DNA of 28,399 bases from Limnoraphis robusta CS-951 (GTDB lineage Bacteria; Cyanobacteriota; Cyanobacteriia; Cyanobacteriales; Microcoleaceae), in the NCBI RefSeq assembly GCF_000972705.2, contig NZ_LATL02000167.1:1-28399 (forward strand), given 5' to 3'. The position numbers were made by a program, and so were the translations under genes. Positions within the stretch are counted from its first letter, which is position 1; the number at the start of each line of letters is the position of its first letter. This document shows positions 13,911 through 24,697 of the stretch, piece after piece. Under the pieces are notes generated by a model. The model did no database searches, was not told the origin of the DNA, and worked only from the letters and a program-made list of their open reading frames with translations.

Positions 13911-13955
13911 CCTTAGCCCCATCAGGGGTTTTTTTATTTCTCTTTTTTTGGGTAG
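13911..13955 (+). terminator. Intrinsic terminator of the ctaCDE operon (repeat copy A)
   Basis: CCCC at 13917-13920 pairs with GGGG at 13925-13928 across an ATCA loop, followed by seven T residues. The whole 45-base stretch recurs at 17997-18041 with 41 of 45 identical bases. Confidence 0.75.
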
Positions 13956-13960
13956 ACCTC

Positions 13961-13994
13961 AAAAACCGGGTTTCTTTGAGAAACCGGGTTTTTT
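13961..13994. repeat. CCGGGTTTCT palindromic repeat, copy 4
   Basis: AAAAACCGGGTTTCT and AGAAACCGGGTTTTT form arms like those of copy 2 but with a mismatched centre (CCGGG instead of CCCGG on the left). It immediately precedes the TTAC at the predicted left end of the TnpB element. Confidence 0.7.
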
Positions 13995-14018
13995 ACCTCA
14001 ATGTCGGCGTGAGGCCTC

Positions 14019-14077
14019 CCGCTATAACCGAGGCGGATTTATCGAGGCGCAGCCGAGTACCGCCAATGGTTTAGCGG
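14019..14077. repeat. Left-end subterminal hairpin of the TnpB element
   Basis: CCGCTATAACC (14019-14029) and GGTTTAGCGG (14068-14077) form the outer stem with one bulge. GGCGG (14032-14036) and CCGCC (14060-14064) form an inner stem. Imperfect hairpins of this kind are the single-strand recognition sites of IS200/IS605 transposases. Confidence 0.6.
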
Positions 14078-14103
14078 TGAGATGAATGCCGACTATCTAA
14101 TAA

Positions 14104-14131
14104 TTGAGCGGTAGCGAATCCTTGTTATTAT
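14104..14131 (+). promoter_or_regulatory. Possible tnpB promoter
   Basis: TTGAGC at 14104-14109 and TATTAT at 14126-14131 are separated by 16 bases and lie 40 bases before the tnpB ATG. A transcript from here would cover the first exon and the whole intron. This is inferred from spacing and sequence only. Confidence 0.3.
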
Positions 14132-14162
14132 ACCCATGTTTGTGCTGGGTAAAATATGATAT

Positions 14163-14175
14163 TATTCTACCATGT
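14163..14175 (+). other. tnpB: tnpB 5' exon with start codon and intron-binding sites IBS2 and IBS1
   Basis: IBS2 TATTCTA (14163-14169) pairs with TAGAGTA at 14335-14341 inside the intron (six Watson-Crick pairs and one G-U). IBS1 CCATGT (14170-14175) pairs perfectly with ACATGG at 14571-14576. The tnpB start codon ATG is 14172-14174, and only T14175 follows before the intron. Joining to TAGTAATTGAA at 16683 gives M-L-V-I-E-A in frame with tnpB. Confidence 0.8.
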
Positions 14176-14862
14176 GTGCGAAACGTTCCTGTCAAAGTTT
14201 AGGGACAAAACCCGAAACGTAAACAGGGAAAAAAGGTTTTTAACCAATTAAAACCTTTTTTTAACTTTGAAAATGTGACCTTAAAGGAAGGTCAACCCCG
14301 GAGTCAATGGTACGGATTACTGAACCTCAATAGGTAGAGTATTCCAATCCCAAAGGGGTAAGGCAATTCCCACAGTGTCAGACTGATTATCAAAACACTG
14401 AAGCTGGGAATAACGGGAAACCGGATATAAGTCAAATATCTAAGTAGTTCTCTAGCCAATTGCCCAAGAATAACGAAAGTGAACATCCGGCTTGAACCGT
14501 CGTAAGAATTAAGCAGCGAAATGACTTGTTACGCTGCGTTCAAAAGAACAAAGGGAAAAGGTAGGGGGATACATGGACTCTCTATAAAAGATAAGGATGT
14601 TGGTTCTTAACTTATCAAGACTCCCAAAAGTACCTCGGCGGAAAGGATGATTCTAAAGGCAACAAAACCCATTTTCAAGGAACGTTAAAACCCCTCATAT
14701 ACCCCTACAGAGGTCGAATACTGTTAGGTAGCCACAAATCTAAGGCGGATGTTATGAGGGTGAGAGATGGAGTCAGAAGCCAAAGCCTAAATGTAATGTA
14801 TAGGATACGCTGATAGATTCCGGTTTAGTTGTTAGGTAAGGTTTCAATTAGCAGTTAAAACG

Positions 14863-16605
14863 GTGAAAACGAGTATAACCAAGACTACGACTACATGGAA
14901 TTCTATCAATTGGGCGAAAGTTCAACGGGTAGTATTTAAGCTGCAAAAGAGAATTTACCAGGCATCATTATCGGGACAAAATGCGAAAGCTCGGAAGCTC
15001 CAAAAACTTCTAGTCAAGTCATATTACGCCAAACTCTTAGCGATTAGAAAGGTAACTCAGGATAATCTTGGCAAAAAAACAGCCGGGGTTGATGGAATTA
15101 AATCTATTACACCTAAACAACGGTTAGAACTAGCCCAAAACCTGAGTAAATACCAAAAGGCAAAACCACTCCGAAGGAAATGGATACCCAAGCCCAACGG
15201 AGAAAAACGTCCTCTAGGAATCCCAACTATACAAGATAGAGTAAGGCAAGCCTTGGTGAAATCTGCGTTAGAACCACAATGGGAAGCCAGATTCGAGGGC
15301 GAAAGCTACGGATTTAGACCCGGACGTTCAGCCCATGACGCAATGTCACGAATCTTCCAAAGTATCAATAAAGATGAATATTACATCCTAGATGCTGACA
15401 TCTCAAAATGCTTTGACCAGATTAACCATGAACACCTACTGTCCAAAATTGATTGTCCATCAACAATAAAAGCCCAAATCAAACAATGGTTAAAAGCTGG
15501 AGTGATGGACAACGGCATATTTGAAGCAACAGAGGCAGGCACCCCACAAGGAGGAGTCATTAGCCCCTTACTTGCTAACATCGCACTGGATGGAATGATT
15601 AGGTTTGTTGAAAAATGCTACCCAAAAGGAACAAACAACAACAAGAACTACGCAAAAATCATTAGATATGCCGATGACTTCGTGGTAATTAGCCCACAAT
15701 TAGAAGTTATTCAACAGTGCCAAGTTGTCATAGAAGAATGGTTAAAACCTATCGGGTTAGAACTGAAACCAGCCAAAACCCGTATATGCCACACACTAAG
15801 AGAAATCAAAGTAAATGGCTTAAAAGTCAAACCAGGATTCGACTTTCTAGGTTGGAACTTTAGACAACACTCAGTGGGTAAACACCACTCAGGAAAAACA
15901 GGTGGAAAGAACTCAAAATTAATAGGGTTCAAAACCATAATAAAACCTAGTAAGAAGGCAATTAAAGCTCACTCGGATAAGGTGAAAGAAGTGATTAAAA
16001 CCCACAAAACTGCACCCCAATACGCACTAATCAAACGCCTAAACCCAGTCATAAGAGGATGGTGTAACTACCATTCCAAAGCTGTTTCTAAGGAAACATT
16101 CTCCTCTTTAGACCATATTACATGGCAAAGGTTAAGAGCATGGACAGTTAGCAGAAGCGGTAAAGCAAGTTACAAAAAACTGAAACATTATTTCAGAAGA
16201 AACGGGAACAAAGCATGGAGTTTTGAAACCAAAGATGGCTTTAAATTAACCACCCATGCAGAAACACCTATCACCCGTCATGTAACCGTAAGACCTGAAG
16301 CATCACCTTATGACGGAAACTGGACTTATTGGAGTGCAAGAAAAGGAACATCTTATGATGTACCTAAACGAGTAGCAACACTGCTTAAAAAGCAGAAAGG
16401 CAAATGTAACTTCTGTGGACAATATTTTAGCCCAGAAGATATTGTAGAAATCGACCATATTCTTCCCACAAGTTTAGGCGGGAAAAACGAATATAAGAAC
16501 CTACAATTACTACATCGCCACTGTCACGATACTAAAACGGCAACCGATGGGTCTTACAACTCAAAAGAAACCGGATGTTCTGACGATAACAGTCAACTAG
16601 ACTAG
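14863..16605 (+). CDS. ltrA: Group II intron reverse transcriptase/maturase with HNH endonuclease
   Basis: This multifunctional protein assists splicing and drives retrohoming of the intron. The 580-residue product begins with GTG. The reverse transcriptase domain spans about 60-335, with QDRVRQA at 124-130, GTPQGG at 226-231 and the catalytic YADD at 269-272. The maturase X domain lies at about 365-460 (VIRGWCNYH at 396-404). An HNH endonuclease follows at about 512-560: C515 and C518, DH at 531-532, and HRHCH at 551-555. All active-site motifs are present and no frameshift is seen, so the intron should be mobile. The stop codon directly abuts domain V. The gene is encoded on the intron sense strand. 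Confidence 0.95.
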   Translation: MKTSITKTTTTWNSINWAKVQRVVFKLQKRIYQASLSGQNAKARKLQKLLVKSYYAKLLAIRKVTQDNLGKKTAGVDGIKSITPKQRLELAQNLSKYQKAKPLRRKWIPKPNGEKRPLGIPTIQDRVRQALVKSALEPQWEARFEGESYGFRPGRSAHDAMSRIFQSINKDEYYILDADISKCFDQINHEHLLSKIDCPSTIKAQIKQWLKAGVMDNGIFEATEAGTPQGGVISPLLANIALDGMIRFVEKCYPKGTNNNKNYAKIIRYADDFVVISPQLEVIQQCQVVIEEWLKPIGLELKPAKTRICHTLREIKVNGLKVKPGFDFLGWNFRQHSVGKHHSGKTGGKNSKLIGFKTIIKPSKKAIKAHSDKVKEVIKTHKTAPQYALIKRLNPVIRGWCNYHSKAVSKETFSSLDHITWQRLRAWTVSRSGKASYKKLKHYFRRNGNKAWSFETKDGFKLTTHAETPITRHVTVRPEASPYDGNWTYWSARKGTSYDVPKRVATLLKKQKGKCNFCGQYFSPEDIVEIDHILPTSLGGKNEYKNLQLLHRHCHDTKTATDGSYNSKETGCSDDNSQLD

Positions 16606-16678
16606 GAGCCGTGTGCGGTGAAAGTCGCAAGCACGGTTCTGAATGGGAGTCGGGGGTTGTAAAGCCCCCCTCGACCCC
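16606..16678 (+). ncRNA. Group II intron domains V and VI
   Basis: Domain V is the 34 bases at 16606-16639: the AGC catalytic triad at 16607-16609, a GCCGTG / CACGGT stem, and a GAAA-containing loop region. Domain VI at about 16643-16678 pairs GGG-GUCG-GGGG with CCCC-CGAC-CCC around a short loop. These are the catalytic core and branch-point domains. Confidence 0.85.
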
Positions 16679-16682
16679 TAAT

Positions 16683-17965
16683 TAGTAATTGAAGCCAAGC
16701 TCAAAGGAACCCAGTCGCAGTACAGTAAATTGGATGAAGCAATCCGCACAGGACAATTCATCCGTAACACCTGTTTGCGTTATTGGGAAGATAACAAGGG
16801 GGTCACTCGTAACGACCTCCAAAAGCTTTGCTCGGTACTAGCTAAGAACAAGGAAACCCCTTGGACGAAGAAGCTAAACTCTCAAGCTAGGCAGGCTCAC
16901 GCTGATAGGGCGTGGTCTGCCATTCAACGTTTTTATGAGAACTGTAGATTGGGTAAACCCGGAAAAAAAGGCTATCCAAAGTACAAAAAGTTTGGTCGTT
17001 CCGTCGAGTACAAAAACAGTGGTTGGAAGCTATCTGCTGATAGAAGACAGATAACTTTCACTGACGGCTTTAACGCTGGAACGATGGATTTATGGAGTTC
17101 TAGAGATTTGATCTGGTATTCAGAAAAGCAAATCTCTAGAGTTCGAGTCATAAGACGTGCTGACGGCTACCATGCTCAGTTCTTAGTGAGTTGGGATAGA
17201 CGAGAGGAGCATGAGTTTCAAGGGAAAATGACGGGAATTGACTTAGGCCTTAAAGAGTTCTATACCGATTCCGATGGAAATACTATAGAAAACCCTCGCT
17301 ATTTGCGGAAGTCCGAACGAAGACTAAAGATGCTTCAACGTCGGGTTTCTAAAAAGCATAGCAAAGGAAAGAAACAGTCAAATAGATACCATAAGGCACG
17401 CAAGGCTTTAGCTAAACAGCATCTTAAAGTCAGTAGACAGCGTGAAGACAAAGCTCGAAAAGATGCTTTGGCGCTAGTTAAGTCTAACGATTTAATTGTC
17501 TACGAAGATTTAAAGATACGAAACATGATAAAAAATCATCACCTATCTAAATCGATAAGTGATGCTAGTTGGTATCAATTCACGCAATGGCTTCAATATT
17601 TTGCCAAGGTTTATGGTGTCATAGTTATTGCCGTACCGCCTCACAATACAACGGTTGATTGTTCGAGTTGTGGGGCGCAGGTGAAGAAAACGCTTAGTAC
17701 CAGGACTCACAAATGCAGTAGTTGTGGAACGATTTTAGACCGTGACCACAACGCCGCGAAAAACATCTTGGCAAAGGGATTTAAGTTATTAGCCGAATAT
17801 TTAAACAGTACCGTAGGGCATACGGAATCTGGAGCCAAAAGCTGGAAAGCGCAGGGAGAAACTGACCTCTGGCTCAAGAACGGAGACGCTCTTGCTCTAA
17901 GTCGGCTCGATGAACTGCGAACCAAGAACTCTTGGGAATCCCCCGCTATATTGCGTAGCAATTAG
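16683..17965 (+). CDS. tnpB: RNA-guided endonuclease TnpB (second exon)
   Basis: TnpB of the IS200/IS605 family, a compact ancestor-type relative of Cas12 that cuts DNA guided by an omega RNA from the element's right end. With the four bases at 14172-14175 the spliced protein is 428 residues and starts MLVIEAKLKGTQ. The RuvC triad is complete: D188 (GIDLGLKEF), E276 (YEDLKI) and D356 (DRDHNAAKN). The zinc finger has C328, C331, C346 and C349 (two CSSCG/CSSCG-like knuckles). No stop or frameshift interrupts the exon. An unspliced transcript could start only internally, for example at the TTG at 16730, and would lose the first 17 residues. Its end overlaps the element's right-end hairpin. Confidence 0.92.
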
Positions 17966-18002
17966 CGGCGGGAGGATGTCAATGATCAGTTGTAATCCTT
18001 AG
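17800..18002 (+). ncRNA. Predicted omega RNA scaffold and guide
   Basis: In this family the guide RNA is made from the 3' end of tnpB and the right end, with the guide taken from flanking DNA. The scaffold would end at TCAA (17982), and the guide would begin at T17983 (TGATCAGTTGTAATCC). The predicted target-adjacent motif is the left flank TTAC. The 5' end of the RNA cannot be placed from sequence; 17800 is a rough lower bound. Confidence 0.45.
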
Positions 18003-18275
18003 CCCCAGATGGGGTTTTTTTATTTCTCATTTTTTGGGTAGTTGGATTTACCCCCAGATGCAAAAATTCCTCGCTAGGGTGAGAAAGCAAGATCCTCTTA
18101 AACGGGTGAGAGTTCGTTCCTGAGACGGCAATCAAACGATATTAGAGGAATGGGGGAATGGCGATCGCCACTTTGGGAATTGATTTGTACAAAGCAACGG
18201 TATAAACTGAATCATTACCCCAACCCATCAATACAGAGTATCCAGCATTTCCCCTATGCTGAAGTACAGATTACA
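17966..18275. other. 310-base spacer between tnpB and the serine hydrolase-like gene
   Basis: It contains the right end of the TnpB element, the predicted guide, a terminator copy (17997-18041) and then about 230 bases of sequence without features. An open frame extends upstream to 18150 but looks non-coding there. Confidence 0.5.
17997..18041 (+). terminator. Intrinsic terminator, repeat copy B
   Basis: CCCC (18003-18006) and GGGG (18011-18014) flank an AGAT loop and are followed by a T-run. It differs from copy A at 13911-13955 at only four of 45 positions, three of them in the loop. It can stop transcripts coming from the TnpB element. Confidence 0.7.
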
Positions 18276-19475
18276 ATGAATCAAAATTTACTCAAACGGG
18301 CGATTAACCCAGACCAAGTTTTTGAGAAACTGCTGCAAATTGCACTCAATCAGGGAGCAAATGCTAATCATTTAGCGTTTTTAGATCGAGGAATTGAAAA
18401 CTCTCCCTATCGAGATGAAATTGATCGCTACTCGACATACCTCAAGCAAAAATCTATGATGTTTCGCCCTTATCCTAAACTTGGGCAAATTCCAGATATT
18501 GATCCGGACGCCTTAGACTTCCTACATGAAGATATCAAAGAAGCTTGTGTTTGTATCGGTCGTTGGAATCAGGGACAACTACAAACATTATGGGCGGGGA
18601 AAAATCATCTCGAAAAAGCTCAGTTTTGGAGTTCCACTAAGATTATACCTGCTTTAAATGTGTTGAGTCAAGTCAATTCTAAGTTTCCCGGTTCTGCTGT
18701 GGAAAATTGGCGGATTCAAAATCCTGAAGATGAACTTCAAAGCGCGAGTTTTGAAGCGATTGTAGAAGATATTGTCAGCTATGAAAAGCAGATTGATAGT
18801 TCTAATGCTTTATCGGCAATGTTGAAACGATTTGAAACGAGGGAAAAACTTGAGAAATGGTTGCAGACGATTACGGGCAATTATGATTTAGAGTTTCGGG
18901 GTAATTATGGTGAAGATCCCTGGATTATGAATCCTGAATTGGTAGATAGCCAAAACAAAGAGGTTTTACTTCGGGCTGTTTCTGATGAGGCTACGGGAGA
19001 AAATTTGGTTTCTGCTTATGATTTGACTCGGATTATTTCGATGATTGGATGGCATTATCATCTAGAATCAGATGCTCAATTTCCTCATGTGAATTGGAAG
19101 AGTCTTCAACCGATTATTAAGGGATTGGGTAAAGATACGGCTCGATTTGTTGATGTAGCGTTGGAGATGTTGGGATTAGAAAATAAGATTCGTTTTCCTG
19201 TGATTCTTTCTAAGTTGGGTCACGGGCCAAGTTCAAAAAGACAAACCATTGAAACGACTTATATGGCTTTGGTACAGTTTGTTGATCCTTTACCAAAATT
19301 AACAGGAAATTCAGCCAAATTGCGCTCTGTTGCGATGACGTTACGAGGCGTTATTCCGATTCAAGATATGGAAAATTTTGATGATGAGTCCATCCGACTC
19401 GATGCGCGAATGGCAGCAGAAGTCACTGAAATTTTGCGTCGAGTGATCACCGAAGAATTAGATGAAGTTGCTTAA
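18276..19475 (+). CDS. Beta-lactamase/PBP-fold serine hydrolase-like protein
   Basis: From the ATG at 18276 the product is 399 residues. Three motifs occur in the order and spacing of serine beta-lactamases and DD-peptidases: SSTK at 119-122 (SxxK), SSN at 175-177 (SxN), and KLG at 313-315 (KTG-like). The segment LVSAYDLTRIISMI near 244-257 resembles the TPRDLARL helix after the omega-loop region. No signal peptide or membrane segment is evident, unlike most peptidoglycan enzymes, so the compartment is uncertain. KLG instead of KTG may mean altered chemistry or loss of activity. The longer frame from 18150 adds 42 residues that do not look conserved and was not chosen. It precedes the WD40 NTPase gene by 320 bases on the same strand. 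The fold assignment is inferred from motifs only. Confidence 0.62.
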   Translation: MNQNLLKRAINPDQVFEKLLQIALNQGANANHLAFLDRGIENSPYRDEIDRYSTYLKQKSMMFRPYPKLGQIPDIDPDALDFLHEDIKEACVCIGRWNQGQLQTLWAGKNHLEKAQFWSSTKIIPALNVLSQVNSKFPGSAVENWRIQNPEDELQSASFEAIVEDIVSYEKQIDSSNALSAMLKRFETREKLEKWLQTITGNYDLEFRGNYGEDPWIMNPELVDSQNKEVLLRAVSDEATGENLVSAYDLTRIISMIGWHYHLESDAQFPHVNWKSLQPIIKGLGKDTARFVDVALEMLGLENKIRFPVILSKLGHGPSSKRQTIETTYMALVQFVDPLPKLTGNSAKLRSVAMTLRGVIPIQDMENFDDESIRLDARMAAEVTEILRRVITEELDEVA

Positions 19476-19795: not shown

Positions 19796-22700
19796 ATGAA
19801 TCAACAAAATCCCGGAAAAAACATTAGATCTCTTAACACTTTACTCCGCGTTGTTAATCACTTTTCAGATGAGTTTTCTTTGATTTTTGCTTGCTGTAAC
19901 TATCGCAGCTTACGTCAAAAAGTGATGAAGACTTTGCGAAAGAAATGTTTAGTTGAAATTCAAGAAATTATTTTAGACGTTGAAACCAAGACGCTTTATA
20001 CAAACATCAAAAATTGTTTAGGTGAAAATAAACCCCCGGTTTTGATGATTTTTGGTTTAGAGTCCGTTAATAATATTCAAGAAGTTTTAAAAGCAACCAA
20101 TCAAATTCGAGAGGAATTTAGCAACTTTAAATTTCCCTTGATTATTTGGATTGATGATCATCTTTTGCAAATGATGATTCGGCTCGTTCCTGATTTTCAC
20201 AGTTGGGGAACAACGATTGAATTTGTGATCAGTAAAAAAGAACTCTTAAAGTTTATTCAGAAAACGACAGATGATGTATTTGATAAGATCTCCAGTAGTG
20301 GTGCAAGTATTTTTTTAGAGAATTCTAGCTTAAATTTAGAAAAAGGTTCTCCACTTCGCAATGAACTAGAACTCGCGCAAGTGGATATCCGAAAACGGAA
20401 TATTCAGCTTGACACAGAACTGGCAGCAAGTTTAGAATTTGTATTGGGTAGAATCGCCGATAATTCCACAGAAGCCGCTCTAAACTATTATGAAAATAGT
20501 TTAGCCTTATGGGAGAAAACGGAGTATCTAGAACGATGGGGTTATCTTCTATTTTATTTGGGTTTTTGGTGGCATAGTCATGCGGTTTTAAATCATTCAG
20601 AACGCGAAAAATCCTATTTCATCGCCAAAGAGTATTATCAGCAATGTATTCAGAAATTTCAACAAGCCGAACGTTCTGATTTAGTCTCCAAGTTTATTAA
20701 TGCGTTAGCGTTAGCTTTATATCGTCTCAAAGATTGGGATGAATTAGAGCAACTTTCTAAAAAAGCAGTCGGTTTACATAAAGTTTATGCTCATCCTTTT
20801 CGACAAGCTAGAGGCTATCATTTTCTCTCGGAAGTGGCTTTAGAAAAAAGGAACTGGAAAAAAGCGAAGAAGTTAGCTGAAAAGTCACTCAAAATTTTTG
20901 AACAGGAAATCAAAGATCGATCCATTGAGATTTCCCATGAACAAGTAATTTATTTAACCTGGGAGAAGTCTTTTCATCAAGCTTGGTATTTATTCTCGTT
21001 GGCAAAAGCTCAACAACTGTTAGGTGAAATAGACGAAGGAATTATCACGCTACAACACGCTATAAAAATTGCAAAACCTGAATATGACCCGGAGCTTTAT
21101 ATTAATATTTTAAATCAATTAAACGAGTTATATTTTAAAAATGGTGAATATTTTATTGCCTTTACAACCAAGCAAAAAAGACGAGAAATTCAGCAACAAT
21201 TTGGCTTAAGAGCATTTATTGGAGCGGGTCGTCTGGTTCACAGTCAATCGATTACAAATCCAGGTTTACCTTTTGTCGAAAAACATCAAAAAGTGAACCC
21301 AGAAATTGCTGCATCTGGACGAGTTCGAGATATTGAAAATTTAGTAACACGCATTCGGATGAATGATCGAAAATTAATTGTCATTCATGGACATTCGGGA
21401 GTTGGAAAAAGCTCTATTATCCAGGCTGGTTTAATTCCTAAATTAAAATATATTGTAGTAGAAGAACGTCGAGTTATCGCGGTTTTACAACGATATTATG
21501 TGAATTGGGTTCAAGCGTTAAGTCAAGCTTTGAGTGAAGCTTTTATCAAGCTGAATTCTATTCACTTTGATAGCAATAATTTTCAAACCCTTGATGAAAT
21601 TAAGAGTTTTCTGCAAAAAAGTATAAACCACAATCTTCAGATTGTTCTGATTTTTGATCAATTTGAAGAATTTTTCTTTGTTTGTAAAGAATCAGAGCAA
21701 CGAAAACAGTTTTATCAATTTCTTAAATTTTGTCTAGATACTCCTTTTGTGAAAGTGATTCTTTCTTTGAGACAGGATTACTTGCATTATCTACTCGAAG
21801 GAAATCGTCTCGAATATTTTGAAGCCATTAATCACAATGTTTTGGATAAAAATATTCTCTATCACATCGGTAACTTTTCGCCGGATGAAGCAAAATCAGT
21901 GATTCAGAAACTAACGGAAACAACTCAAATCATACCTGAAACGGCTCTAATTGATGAATTAGTAAAAGATTTAGCTCAAGAATTCAATGAAGTGCGTCCG
22001 ATTGAGTTACAAGTTGTAGGCGCTCAACTTCAGGCGATGGAAATTACCACCTTAGAACAATATCAAACCCAAGGGCCAACGCGAAAACTGGTAGAAAAAT
22101 ATTTAGAGGAAGTGATTGATGAATGTGGCCCTGAAAATAAACAACTAGCGGAACTGATTCTCTATTTACTGACCGATGAAAACAATACTCGACCGCTCAA
22201 AACCCGCTCGGATTTGATTCGAGAACTCACGCATTATATGGAGCAAGAAGCCCAGAATTTGGATACGGTTTTAGAGATATTTATTGTATCAGGGTTAGTC
22301 TGTTTGTTCCCCGAAATTCCAGTTGAACGATATCAGTTAGTTCACGACTATTTAGTTTATTTTATCCGTCAACAACGCAGTGCTGAAATTATTGCTCAAT
22401 TTGATCGCGAACGAGAAAGGCGGGAACAAGCAGAAGCTCAACGCAAAGAAGCGGAAGAAAGACTCAATCAAGTTCTTCAGCAACGGTTAGAAGAAGCTCA
22501 AGCCAGTGTTCAACGTCAGAAAAATCGACTACTCGCATCAATTGCTATCAGTGCGATGATGGTATTACTCTCTGCAACCGCAATTATTAGCACAGGAATT
22601 GTTAGAGAACAAAAAGCTCAACTCAGACGTCAGAATATTGAAAATTCAAACTTTAATTATACTGTGTTTTTAATTGAAAATAACCAATTAGAAGCTTCTT

Positions 22701-24697
22701 TAAATCTTTTAAGAGGATCACAATATTTAGAAGATAAATCGATAAAATATTCCTTTGAACAAGAAACAATGTATAAGCTTTGGGCTGTTCTCAATTTACT
22801 GCAAGAGCGTAATCGATTTGAAGGAAATAGTGGTGCTGTTATTAGTGCGAACTTTAGTCCTGATGCTCAAATAATCGCTTCGGCGGGAGATGATAAAAAA
22901 ATAAAACTTTGGAAACCGACAGGTGAACTGATTAAAACTATAGAAGGACATAATAGTAGAGTTTGGTACGTTACATTTAGTCCCGATAGTCAAATCATCG
23001 CTTCAGCGAGTGAAGATAAAACCATCAAACTTTGGAAGCTAGATGGAACTTTGATCAGAACAATTCCAGCCCATGAAGATGCCGTTCAATGGTTGAGTTT
23101 TAGTCCAGATGGTCAACAAATTGCTTCTGCCAGCCGTGATAAAACCGTTAAAATTTGGAATCTGAATGGTAATTTAATCACGACATTAAAAAGTCATAAT
23201 AGTCCTGTTTCTAGTGTTTTGTTTAGCTCCGATGGTGAACGAATTGTTTCAGCAGATAGAGATGGAAGATTAATCTTCTGGAACCGCCAGGGTGAGTTAA
23301 TTAAAACAGTGAAAGCTCACAGTGAGACAATTTGGAGTATTGCTTTTAGCCCTGATACTCAAACTGTCGCTTCAGCTAGTAGTGATCAAACGGTTAAATT
23401 GTGGAGTCGAGAGGGTCTACTTATCAAAACTTTAGATGAACATAAACACGCGGTTTTTAGTGTGAGTTATAGCCCCGATGGTCAATCAATAGCCTCTGCT
23501 GACACCAATGGAAATATTATTTTTTGGAGCCAAGCTGGTATTCAAAAAACGATTCTTCGAGGTCATCGAAATGCGGTCAATCAAGTTAGTTTTACTCCAG
23601 ATAGTCAAATGCTAATTTCAGCGAGTAAAGATAGCACGGTAAGACTCTGGAACCTAAATAGTATCCCGCAAGTTTTTCAACCGAGCGAAGCAGTCTATAA
23701 TATGATTTTCAGTCCAGATGGTCAACTCTTAGCATCTGTGAGTGATCAAAAGCAAGTGATTCTTTGGAAAGTTCATCGGTCAGCGAAACAACAGTTACCC
23801 TATGCCTTGAGCAAACAATTAAGTTTCAAAGATCATAGCGATGTTGTGAATAATATCAGTTTCAGTCCAGATGGTAAATTGATCGCCTCTGCGAGTCAAG
23901 ATAAAACGGTTAAACTGTGGAATCTTGAGGGTAAAGTTATCAAAAATCTACCCCATAATGCTCCAGTTTGGACTGTGAAATTTAGTCCAGATGGACAATT
24001 AATCGCAACCGCTAGTGAGGATCAAACCGTACAGCTTTGGACTCGTGATGGAAAACTTCTGCACAGTTTGAAAGGACATCAAGACTCTATTAATGATTTG
24101 AGTTTCAGTCCCGATAGTCAGCTTTTAGCGTCAGCAAGTGATGATAATACTATTATTTTTTGGAATCGTGAGGGTCAACTGATTGAGAAGTTGAGGGGCG
24201 ATGGAAGTAAGTTTTCATCGGTTAGTTTTAGCCCTCCTTCTGAGGATAGTGAACTGATTGTCGCGGCTACCGCTCAAGGCTCTCTTGAGTTTTGGAAACG
24301 CCAGGATCAAACTTGGGAAAAAATTGATACGAGAACAGCAATTGGTGGACATACGGGTGGAATTTCTGAGGTTAGTTTTAGTCCAAATGGTGAAATTATT
24401 ACCTCTGCCAGTTTCGATGGTACGGTTAAACTCTGGGATCGGTACGGAAATTTAATTGCCACTTTTCGGGCGGGTTCTGCACAGATATTCTCGGTCAGCT
24501 ATAGTCCAGATTATCCCACTCTGGTCGCGACTGATGAAGCAAACCGAGTTATTTTTTGGAAGTTAGATGATCGCAAATTTAATGATACTTCTGACTTACT
24601 CAAACAGGTTTGTACTCAGCTTAATAGCTATTTAAAATATAACTCTACTCTTGAGCACACAGATAAGATGCTTTGTGATAAGATCATTCACAATTAA
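19796..24697 (+). CDS. STAND-type NTPase with TPRs, coiled coil, membrane segment and 14 WD40 repeats
   Basis: A 1633-residue signal-transduction-type protein. The N-terminal domain (about 15-160) contains a CNYRSLRQKV strand-helix and IFGLESVNN; it looks like a P-loop-like fold lacking its own Walker motif. A helical TPR region covers about 205-465. The NTPase module (about 500-860) has Walker A GHSGVGKSS at 532-540 and Walker B IVLIFDQFEEF at 616-626. A charged coiled coil (864-910) leads to one hydrophobic helix (about 912-935). The C terminus (about 1005-1605) is built of 14 WD40 repeats, enough for two seven-bladed propellers. Such proteins are common in filamentous cyanobacteria; STAND NTPases elsewhere act as sensors in immunity or cell death, but no effector nuclease or protease domain is recognised here. 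Confidence 0.85.
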   Translation: MNQQNPGKNIRSLNTLLRVVNHFSDEFSLIFACCNYRSLRQKVMKTLRKKCLVEIQEIILDVETKTLYTNIKNCLGENKPPVLMIFGLESVNNIQEVLKATNQIREEFSNFKFPLIIWIDDHLLQMMIRLVPDFHSWGTTIEFVISKKELLKFIQKTTDDVFDKISSSGASIFLENSSLNLEKGSPLRNELELAQVDIRKRNIQLDTELAASLEFVLGRIADNSTEAALNYYENSLALWEKTEYLERWGYLLFYLGFWWHSHAVLNHSEREKSYFIAKEYYQQCIQKFQQAERSDLVSKFINALALALYRLKDWDELEQLSKKAVGLHKVYAHPFRQARGYHFLSEVALEKRNWKKAKKLAEKSLKIFEQEIKDRSIEISHEQVIYLTWEKSFHQAWYLFSLAKAQQLLGEIDEGIITLQHAIKIAKPEYDPELYINILNQLNELYFKNGEYFIAFTTKQKRREIQQQFGLRAFIGAGRLVHSQSITNPGLPFVEKHQKVNPEIAASGRVRDIENLVTRIRMNDRKLIVIHGHSGVGKSSIIQAGLIPKLKYIVVEERRVIAVLQRYYVNWVQALSQALSEAFIKLNSIHFDSNNFQTLDEIKSFLQKSINHNLQIVLIFDQFEEFFFVCKESEQRKQFYQFLKFCLDTPFVKVILSLRQDYLHYLLEGNRLEYFEAINHNVLDKNILYHIGNFSPDEAKSVIQKLTETTQIIPETALIDELVKDLAQEFNEVRPIELQVVGAQLQAMEITTLEQYQTQGPTRKLVEKYLEEVIDECGPENKQLAELILYLLTDENNTRPLKTRSDLIRELTHYMEQEAQNLDTVLEIFIVSGLVCLFPEIPVERYQLVHDYLVYFIRQQRSAEIIAQFDRERERREQAEAQRKEAEERLNQVLQQRLEEAQASVQRQKNRLLASIAISAMMVLLSATAIISTGIVREQKAQLRRQNIENSNFNYTVFLIENNQLEASLNLLRGSQYLEDKSIKYSFEQETMYKLWAVLNLLQERNRFEGNSGAVISANFSPDAQIIASAGDDKKIKLWKPTGELIKTIEGHNSRVWYVTFSPDSQIIASASEDKTIKLWKLDGTLIRTIPAHEDAVQWLSFSPDGQQIASASRDKTVKIWNLNGNLITTLKSHNSPVSSVLFSSDGERIVSADRDGRLIFWNRQGELIKTVKAHSETIWSIAFSPDTQTVASASSDQTVKLWSREGLLIKTLDEHKHAVFSVSYSPDGQSIASADTNGNIIFWSQAGIQKTILRGHRNAVNQVSFTPDSQMLISASKDSTVRLWNLNSIPQVFQPSEAVYNMIFSPDGQLLASVSDQKQVILWKVHRSAKQQLPYALSKQLSFKDHSDVVNNISFSPDGKLIASASQDKTVKLWNLEGKVIKNLPHNAPVWTVKFSPDGQLIATASEDQTVQLWTRDGKLLHSLKGHQDSINDLSFSPDSQLLASASDDNTIIFWNREGQLIEKLRGDGSKFSSVSFSPPSEDSELIVAATAQGSLEFWKRQDQTWEKIDTRTAIGGHTGGISEVSFSPNGEIITSASFDGTVKLWDRYGNLIATFRAGSAQIFSVSYSPDYPTLVATDEANRVIFWKLDDRKFNDTSDLLKQVCTQLNSYLKYNSTLEHTDKMLCDKIIHN

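Follow-up and report, generated by a model that had tools for sequence, protein, structure and literature searches.

A group II intron in the second codon of a cyanobacterial tnpB gene and a promoter-like hexamer upstream of most of its family's insertion sites

What brings a group II intron to the very beginning of a TnpB nuclease gene, and what becomes of the gene once the intron is there? The question is raised by a contig of the cyanobacterium Limnoraphis robusta CS-951 (NZ_LATL02000167.1, assembly GCF_000972705.2), analyzed as one stretch of 28,399 nucleotides (nt) that is called the window below. The window carries a TnpB-only insertion sequence (IS) of the IS200/IS605 type, and the tnpB gene of this element is interrupted by a group II intron four bases into its reading frame. 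It is probable, in our judgment, that the intron jumped to the promoter-proximal edge of the element as a member of a family most copies of which sit 10 nt after a -10-like hexamer, and that its arrival was likelier to silence tnpB than to leave the gene restored by splicing.

An intron nested in a TnpB element

The intron occupies positions 14176-16682 of the forward strand (2507 nt). It starts with GTGCG at 14176, as an earlier sequence-only reading of the locus had proposed, and its 3′ end is CCCCTAAT at 16682, ending ...TAAT; both limits follow the 5′ and 3′ ends of the intron's family and the alignments with empty sites. Domains V-VI (16604-16682, forward strand) are matched by Rfam RF00029 over model positions 1-77 of 77 with 56.9 bits, above the gathering score, and the intron thus combines a 5′ GTGYG with a domain V-VI ending in AY. 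Its open reading frame (ORF) for a 580-amino-acid intron-encoded protein (IEP; 14863-16605, forward strand) is intact and comprises the reverse transcriptase, maturase (X) and HNH endonuclease domains of a mobile group II intron. RVT_1, RVT_N, GIIM and HNH (PF00078, PF13655, PF08388, PF01844) all score above their cut-offs, TIGR04416 is matched with 354 bits, and the best match among solved structures is 6me0_C (374 bits), which we take to be TeI4h. Judged by this structure match and by the domain order of the IEP, the intron resembles the cyanobacterial IIB/CL kind. The group II intron is the only Rfam match in the window: a right-end omega RNA, the expected partner of TnpB in RNA-guided cleavage, is not among the Rfam results, and no group I intron, the hallmark of an IStron, was found there.

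The host element extends on the forward strand from about 13991 to 17984, its approximate ends being the limits of homology in related elements. Homology of the relatives mostly begins at positions 90-93 of the spliced query and ends at 1575-1580, and these left and right limits are common to relatives with unlike flanks, as is expected of conserved element ends. Hairpins are present near both ends; the right-end hairpin (CCCCCGCTA...TAGCGGCGG) and the GATGTCAA end of the element lie at 17940-17984 on the forward strand, placed by sequence and by the limits in the relatives. The ORF listing of the stretch holds no tnpA-like ORF of at least 80 amino acids. On the forward strand, exon 1 of tnpB is ATGT (14172-14175) and exon 2 covers 16683-17965; joining 14175 to 16683 gives a TnpB of 428 amino acids that begins MLVIEAKLKGTQ, the normal N terminus that had been expected of the joined frame. 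The product of exon 2 matches Pfam OrfB_IS605 and Cas12f1-like_TNB, and NF040570 with 276 bits (cut-off 100). It can be aligned with the solved TnpB structures 8bf8 and 8h1j (8bf8_A over query 24-366), including the RuvC and zinc-ribbon residues in the motifs GIDLG, YEDL, DRDHN and the CxxC pairs, which presumably have their catalytic role here as in other TnpB proteins.

Intron-free relatives of the element confirm the junction. A query of exon 2 and the right end, searched against 388 genomes of the order with the two best candidates of each genome scored, matched 73 of them at E 1e-30. Thirty loci of close tnpB relatives were fetched; the alignments of 12 continue well into the sequence upstream of the start codon, and the other 18 are uninformative on the junction. 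All 12 informative relatives (69-87% identical) run uninterrupted through it, reading ...ATG^TTAGTA-like sequence, and in a wider set of 30 TnpB loci the codons right after the ATG specify LV, IV, FV or similar in nearly all cases. The insertion is therefore precise with respect to intron-free homologs, and the 5′ ends of these genes agree with the predicted junction. By itself the boundary could be shifted by one base, as there is a T at both ends, and it was placed at 14176 because the family has a conserved GTGCG start. One mobile element thus lies inside another with both coding regions intact, the nested arrangement that the sequence-only reading had described.

A promoter-like hexamer upstream of the insertion sites

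The position of the intron in tnpB is best understood from the other insertion sites of its family. A 16-base pattern for the intron start, which misses diverged 5′ ends, is present in 10 of the 388 genomes; 81 intron 5′ ends were found, and 32 independent sites were kept after near-identical flanks (at most six differences in 25 nt) had been dropped. In 22 of the 32, at least five of the six bases of TATAAT occur at -16 to -11, ending 10 nt upstream of the intron. From the frequency of the hexamer in these flanks, 0.27 sites would be expected (binomial probability about 1e-38), and 21 of 31 sites retain the hexamer at -16 when the window's own site is left out. The first 25 independent sites contributed 17 cases at exactly this spacing, and five of seven sites gathered after the rule had been framed obey it as well; three further sites have the hexamer one base farther up, at -17. 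The 3′ flanks hold no such signal: within their first 60 nt, no offset has the hexamer in more than 2 of 23. Column counts among the 32 sites are T25 A28 T17 A27 A25 T27, with G at -18 in 17. A strong second A and last T, a third T that is the weakest base and the G of TGn are features of the known promoter profile, which these counts resemble.

Empty sites argue that the hexamers belong to the genomes rather than to the intron. The joined flanks of ten insertions were searched in ten Planktothrix-group genomes, which yielded intron-free orthologous sites for nine of them in 24 junction-spanning alignments; the two halves of the tenth query (L151) matched apart, and no alignment crossed its junction. 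In these empty sites the TGn and hexamer differ at 2 of 216 bases, compared with 119 of 932 upstream (Fisher 2e-9), 19 of 240 at -10 to -1, between hexamer and insertion (Fisher 2e-4), and 31 of 720 downstream (Fisher 0.019). Since intron-free orthologs keep the TGn and hexamer, the hexamers are older than the intron, and they look constrained in genomes that do not carry it.

The genomic context points in the same direction. Twenty-one sites have at least 300 nt on both sides, and with ORFs defined as at least 90 amino acids 15 of them are intergenic, the window's site being counted here because it is only four bases into an ORF; the six sites in ORFs are L116, L148, L149, L151, L153 and L156, and some of these may be spurious antisense ORFs. 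At 12 of 14 intergenic sites (L159, with no downstream ORF, was excluded) the first ORF downstream shares the strand of the intron, against a background of 135 of 255 other hexamer-like sites in the same DNA that have a downstream ORF (P 0.012). Most copies of the family would then lie after about base +4 of a predicted transcript, which in most genes would be an untranslated leader.

The tnpB gene appears to be a special case of the same rule. A predicted extended -10 promoter, TGATATTAT, lies at 14157-14165 on the forward strand (TG at 14157-14158, hexamer TATTAT at 14160-14165). Across the window and its 12 relatives the pattern TGnTATnAT at -15 to -7 from the ATG has the counts T13 G12 n T13 A13 T11 n A13 T13 of 13. 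By the usual promoter numbering, the A of the ATG should be +1, and the tnpB mRNA should accordingly be leaderless, with A14172 as its predicted start by the spacing from the hexamer. With a leaderless tnpB, the family's spacing would bring the intron inside codon 2, so that its position at the start codon would be a by-product of the rule: the intron would follow base +4 of the transcript, the place usual in its family. The start codons of tnpB genes had been proposed as a natural spreading route for the intron. This is not supported, in that none of the 12 informative close relatives carries an intron there and most sites of the family are intergenic. Repeated invasion of tnpB start codons was dropped as a candidate on the same 12 relatives, although other cases may exist, as only the two best candidates of each genome were scored.

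A second association of the two kinds of element is found in Arthrospira sp. PCC 9108 (G006). Here a group II intron of 861 nt (L089; RF00029, 55.4 bits), which has no room for an IEP, is inserted 14 nt ahead of the ATG of another tnpB, with TATGGT 11 nt upstream of the intron. The empty site is seen in L097, where the genome has another copy of this element. Other tnpB genes are seemingly broken in mid-gene beside related group II introns (L011, L029, L076, L190), as judged from tblastn and blastn pieces. TnpB elements may be frequent hosts of group II introns.

Exon pairing, target recognition and TnpB output

Group II introns pair with their 5′ exon through exon-binding sites (EBS) that are complementary to intron-binding sites (IBS), and these were located by covariation. 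The window intron was aligned with five copies from Planktothrix-group genomes and then with further copies with canonical ends; EBS1 was scored for 23 copies and EBS2 for 26, those where the pattern located it, comparing own with exchanged pairs at equal register freedom. The family's EBS1 is in the loop between GTAAG and CTTAC, where own pairing reaches 6/6 in 11 of 23 copies against 3.0% of exchanged pairs. EBS2 follows directly after CGTCGT, with 5/5 in 17 of 26 copies against 11.7%. In the window (forward strand throughout) the EBS2 (AGAAT, 14505-14509) pairs 5/5 with an IBS2 (ATTCT, 14164-14168) that overlaps the last two bases of the hexamer, in a register one base nearer the intron than in most copies. 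The EBS1 proper (TGGTTC, 14601-14606, in the loop at 14596-14610) matches its own exon at only 2/6, the lowest of the 23 copies.

The pairings named in the sequence-only reading are elsewhere. Its EBS1 (ACATGG, 14571-14576, forward strand; 6/6) is in the loop of a neighboring hairpin, and its EBS2 (TAGAGTA, 14335-14341; 7/7 with one G-U) is upstream of the covarying positions. Within the intron's first 687 nt, the IBS1 of 7 of 31 other copies finds a perfect 6-mer partner, as do 19.5% of random AT-rich 6-mers; for a 7-mer with at most one G-U the figures are 4 of 31 and 20.9%. Because matches as good as the two proposed ones arise at roughly 13-23% each by chance, they carry little weight. Of the four signals that had been invoked for the boundaries, GTGCG and the restored frame with its N terminus stand and the two pairings do not.

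The family's pairing also bears on the hexamer. IBS2 and IBS1 cover -13 to -1. In this family these positions, together with -18 to -14, coincide with the -10 element and the region of the start. Opposite -13 to -11, EBS2 mostly has ATT, the complement of the AAT in the -10 box, and it tracks deviant hexamer tails (GTT/AAC in L114 and L153, AGT/ACT in L163, ATA/TAT in L159). Recognition of a site probably involves contacts at G-18, T-16 and A-15 together with base pairing, in which EBS2 would bind the 3′ part of the -10 box and the nucleotides following it, and EBS1 the promoter positions from about -2 to +4. Transcription of the intron would then come from the captured tnpB promoter.

Several observations weigh against promoters as the target. 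Seven of the 32 sites have no hexamer at -16 or -17 (L114, L116, L128, L153, L159, L217, L230). L116 and L153 are moreover inside ORFs, the latter with an EBS1 match of 6/6, and these two are perhaps products of ordinary homing by pairing alone. Related introns, mostly from Arthrospira, follow the rule less well, with 7 of 38 sites at -16 in the CAGG group (where the expectation, about 0.3, uses the background rate of Planktothrix-type flanks) and 1 of 20 in the TAGG group. Three copies, those of L149, L158 and the window, break the rule for EBS2 and the hexamer tail when paired in the common register. The leader would be long for four of the 12 co-oriented downstream ORFs, which begin more than 450 nt away. 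The alignments of empty sites represent nine sites from a small number of related genomes, and as their rows are non-independent the P values given for them overstate the significance; several of the 13 rows behind the tnpB promoter motif are likewise close relatives and non-independent. In the Arthrospira case, both tnpB copies have an internal stop and the hexamer, TATGGT, is weak. There is no -35 enrichment, the mean best match to TTGACA being 2.78 against 2.93 in the control. Many cyanobacterial promoters lack a -35 motif.

Finally, a motif read in the DNA alone could yield the same pattern with no part for RNA polymerase. Passages in two studies report that the IEPs of Thermosynechococcus elongatus introns read positions around -16 to -14, and that the intron proteins of T. 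elongatus and EcI5 recognize bases at about -18 to -14 (PMC2882425, PMC3706431). It is quite possible that this is the whole explanation: the IEP reads G-18, T-16 and A-15, EBS2 happens to read AAT, promoters and polymerase are irrelevant, and selection purges the copies that fall in genes. The covariation of -13 to -11 with EBS2 in several copies and the missing -35 signal fit such intrinsic specificity. It leaves unaccounted for why intron-free orthologs keep the TGn and hexamer above their surroundings, why downstream ORFs share the intron's strand and why the column profile is promoter-like. With this conservation, orientation bias and profile, the sites have the appearance of true promoters, even on the view that they are recognized by sequence only.

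A more active part for the promoter can be put forward tentatively. The open complex of RNA polymerase melts about -11 to +3. Almost the same stretch, exposed there as the non-template strand, has to be reached by EBS2 and EBS1, so help from the polymerase is conceivable: the family might retrohome into promoter open complexes, with EBS2 and EBS1 pairing to the non-template strand and reverse splicing at its downstream edge, and the captured promoter would drive the intron. The data do not separate this polymerase-assisted entry from the plainer reading, in which the ribonucleoprotein (RNP) itself reads the motif.

What, then, is left of tnpB? Unspliced RNA reads ATG and 15 codons before a TAA at 14220-14222, just as the sequence-only reading had it. 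In the frame of exon 2 there is a TAA at 16679-16681 inside the intron, and the first listed in-frame start downstream is the TTG at 16730. The reading frames support the view that full-length TnpB would be possible only after splicing. The same reading went further, holding that the named EBS1 and EBS2 allow efficient splicing and that TnpB expression depends on it routinely. The exactly restored frame and N terminus, the intact IEP, domain V and TnpB, and the 5/5 match of EBS2 at its covarying place agree with that model. Its dependence on splicing can be kept for the full-length protein; the pairing that should make splicing efficient cannot, with the covarying EBS1 at 2/6. According to Mohr et al. 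(2010; PMC2882425), efficient splicing is expected only at sites with a complementary IBS. If tnpB is indeed leaderless, the 5′ exon of the unspliced RNA would be four nucleotides long and would include no IBS2 and only part of IBS1. Routine restoration of TnpB is for these reasons unlikely. Because EBS1 matches at 2/6 and the 5′ exon of the RNA may be only AUGU, splicing and hence TnpB output appear doubtful, and silencing or a strong reduction of TnpB is likelier than its routine restoration. With such silencing, TnpB output would be poor and spliced ATGTTAGTAATT RNA would not be abundant.

Two further explanations can be treated briefly. Insertion may have been widespread, with only those copies that captured a promoter staying active and being kept. 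The predominance of intergenic sites among those with both flanks suits such a survivor bias, which is nevertheless very improbable, as an exact spacing of 10 nt in 22 of 32 sites is tighter than promoter capture needs. An assembly chimera deserves practically no credence, given intact IEP and tnpB frames, canonical ends of both the element and the intron, and flanks that are syntenic with a related genome.

Surroundings of the element and relation to known systems

The nearest genome found is G008 (Lyngbya aestuarii BL J, the record that holds L018), which is 89% identical over the ctaE region and the only one of the 388 to match at E 1e-150. Inheritance of the element together with the window's cox locus was considered and rejected, as the syntenic locus of this genome was found without the IS element. 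A near-identical stretch of about 45 nt with the ctaE terminator (CCTTAGCCCC...GGGGTTTTTTTATTTCTC) flanks the element on both sides (13911-13955 and 17997-18041), and a small ORF, HNH-like by eye, that stands at the syntenic place (L273, G008) is mostly missing from the window. The IS insertion seems to have been accompanied by a duplication and a deletion. Farther downstream, positions 19796-24697 encode a 1633-residue protein with repeats that look WD40-like by eye and only a weak NCBIfam match, to TmcD; the adjoining ORF of 441 residues (18150-19475) has no NCBIfam match.

Among other copies of the intron, one site is occupied in two genomes by two introns with different EBS (L160, at the same place as L136, and L161), reflecting either independent hits or replacement in place. 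A 4.6-kb copy (L001/L159) apparently has another intron piece nested inside it, in the manner of a twintron. A plasmid search with the intron returned 40 records. In none of these did a single place account for 80% of the query, and the best-covering matches listed had 64-68% identity; viral contigs gave four loci of 30-67% identity. The left end of the element had no match in the plasmid search.

Group II introns in IS elements are already known, and the present analysis points to a fixed distance downstream of a promoter-like element as a choice of target that is not known to us for such introns. The titles and opening parts of abstracts covered by a literature search, which took in few subscription journals, name no group II intron that targets promoters or start sites. 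The parts of a review that we draw on (PMC4424553) name homing sites, terminators and attC as target classes in bacteria. Transcription start sites, if they are indeed targeted, would be a fourth class. Homing to them would solve two problems at once, since coding sequence is avoided and a promoter is obtained. The way in which the RNP opens double-stranded DNA would also become open to direct tests, the DNA of an active promoter being melted beforehand. TnpB would exemplify the cost, in which a leaderless gene loses the context of its start codon. By the role that its family suggests for TnpB, one mobile element could in this way switch off the RNA-guided nuclease of another.

Four known systems invite comparison. 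The TnpB-only, IS1341-like elements of the IS200/IS605 group share with the window's element an NF040570 TnpB, the lack of a listed tnpA ORF and hairpins near the ends; the window's copy differs from them in being interrupted by an intron, which its relatives do without. IStrons also unite a catalytic intron and TnpB (ORF B) in one locus. As described in part of PMC4227781, theirs is a group I intron fused to the 5′ end of an IS200/IS605 or IS607 element, whereas the tnpB of the window is broken up by a group II intron that encodes a reverse transcriptase of its own. The IIB1/CL introns of T. elongatus (TeI3/TeI4) are similar in forming cyanobacterial multi-copy families that differ by EBS, with an IEP that reads near -16 to -14, and three introns of their family F4 share one conserved site in an IS200-family element (PMC2882425). 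The portions of that study considered here describe homing and intergenic sites and give neither a promoter rule nor the position of F4 within its element. IIC introns, finally, are similar in that their target is a transcription signal rather than a gene, as passages in PMC4424553 and PMC8919778 explain. That signal is an intrinsic terminator and not a promoter, and the same passages describe IIC introns as lacking an endonuclease domain; the intron of the window, in contrast, encodes an HNH endonuclease and is preceded not by an intrinsic terminator but by the left end of the IS element and a -10-like motif.

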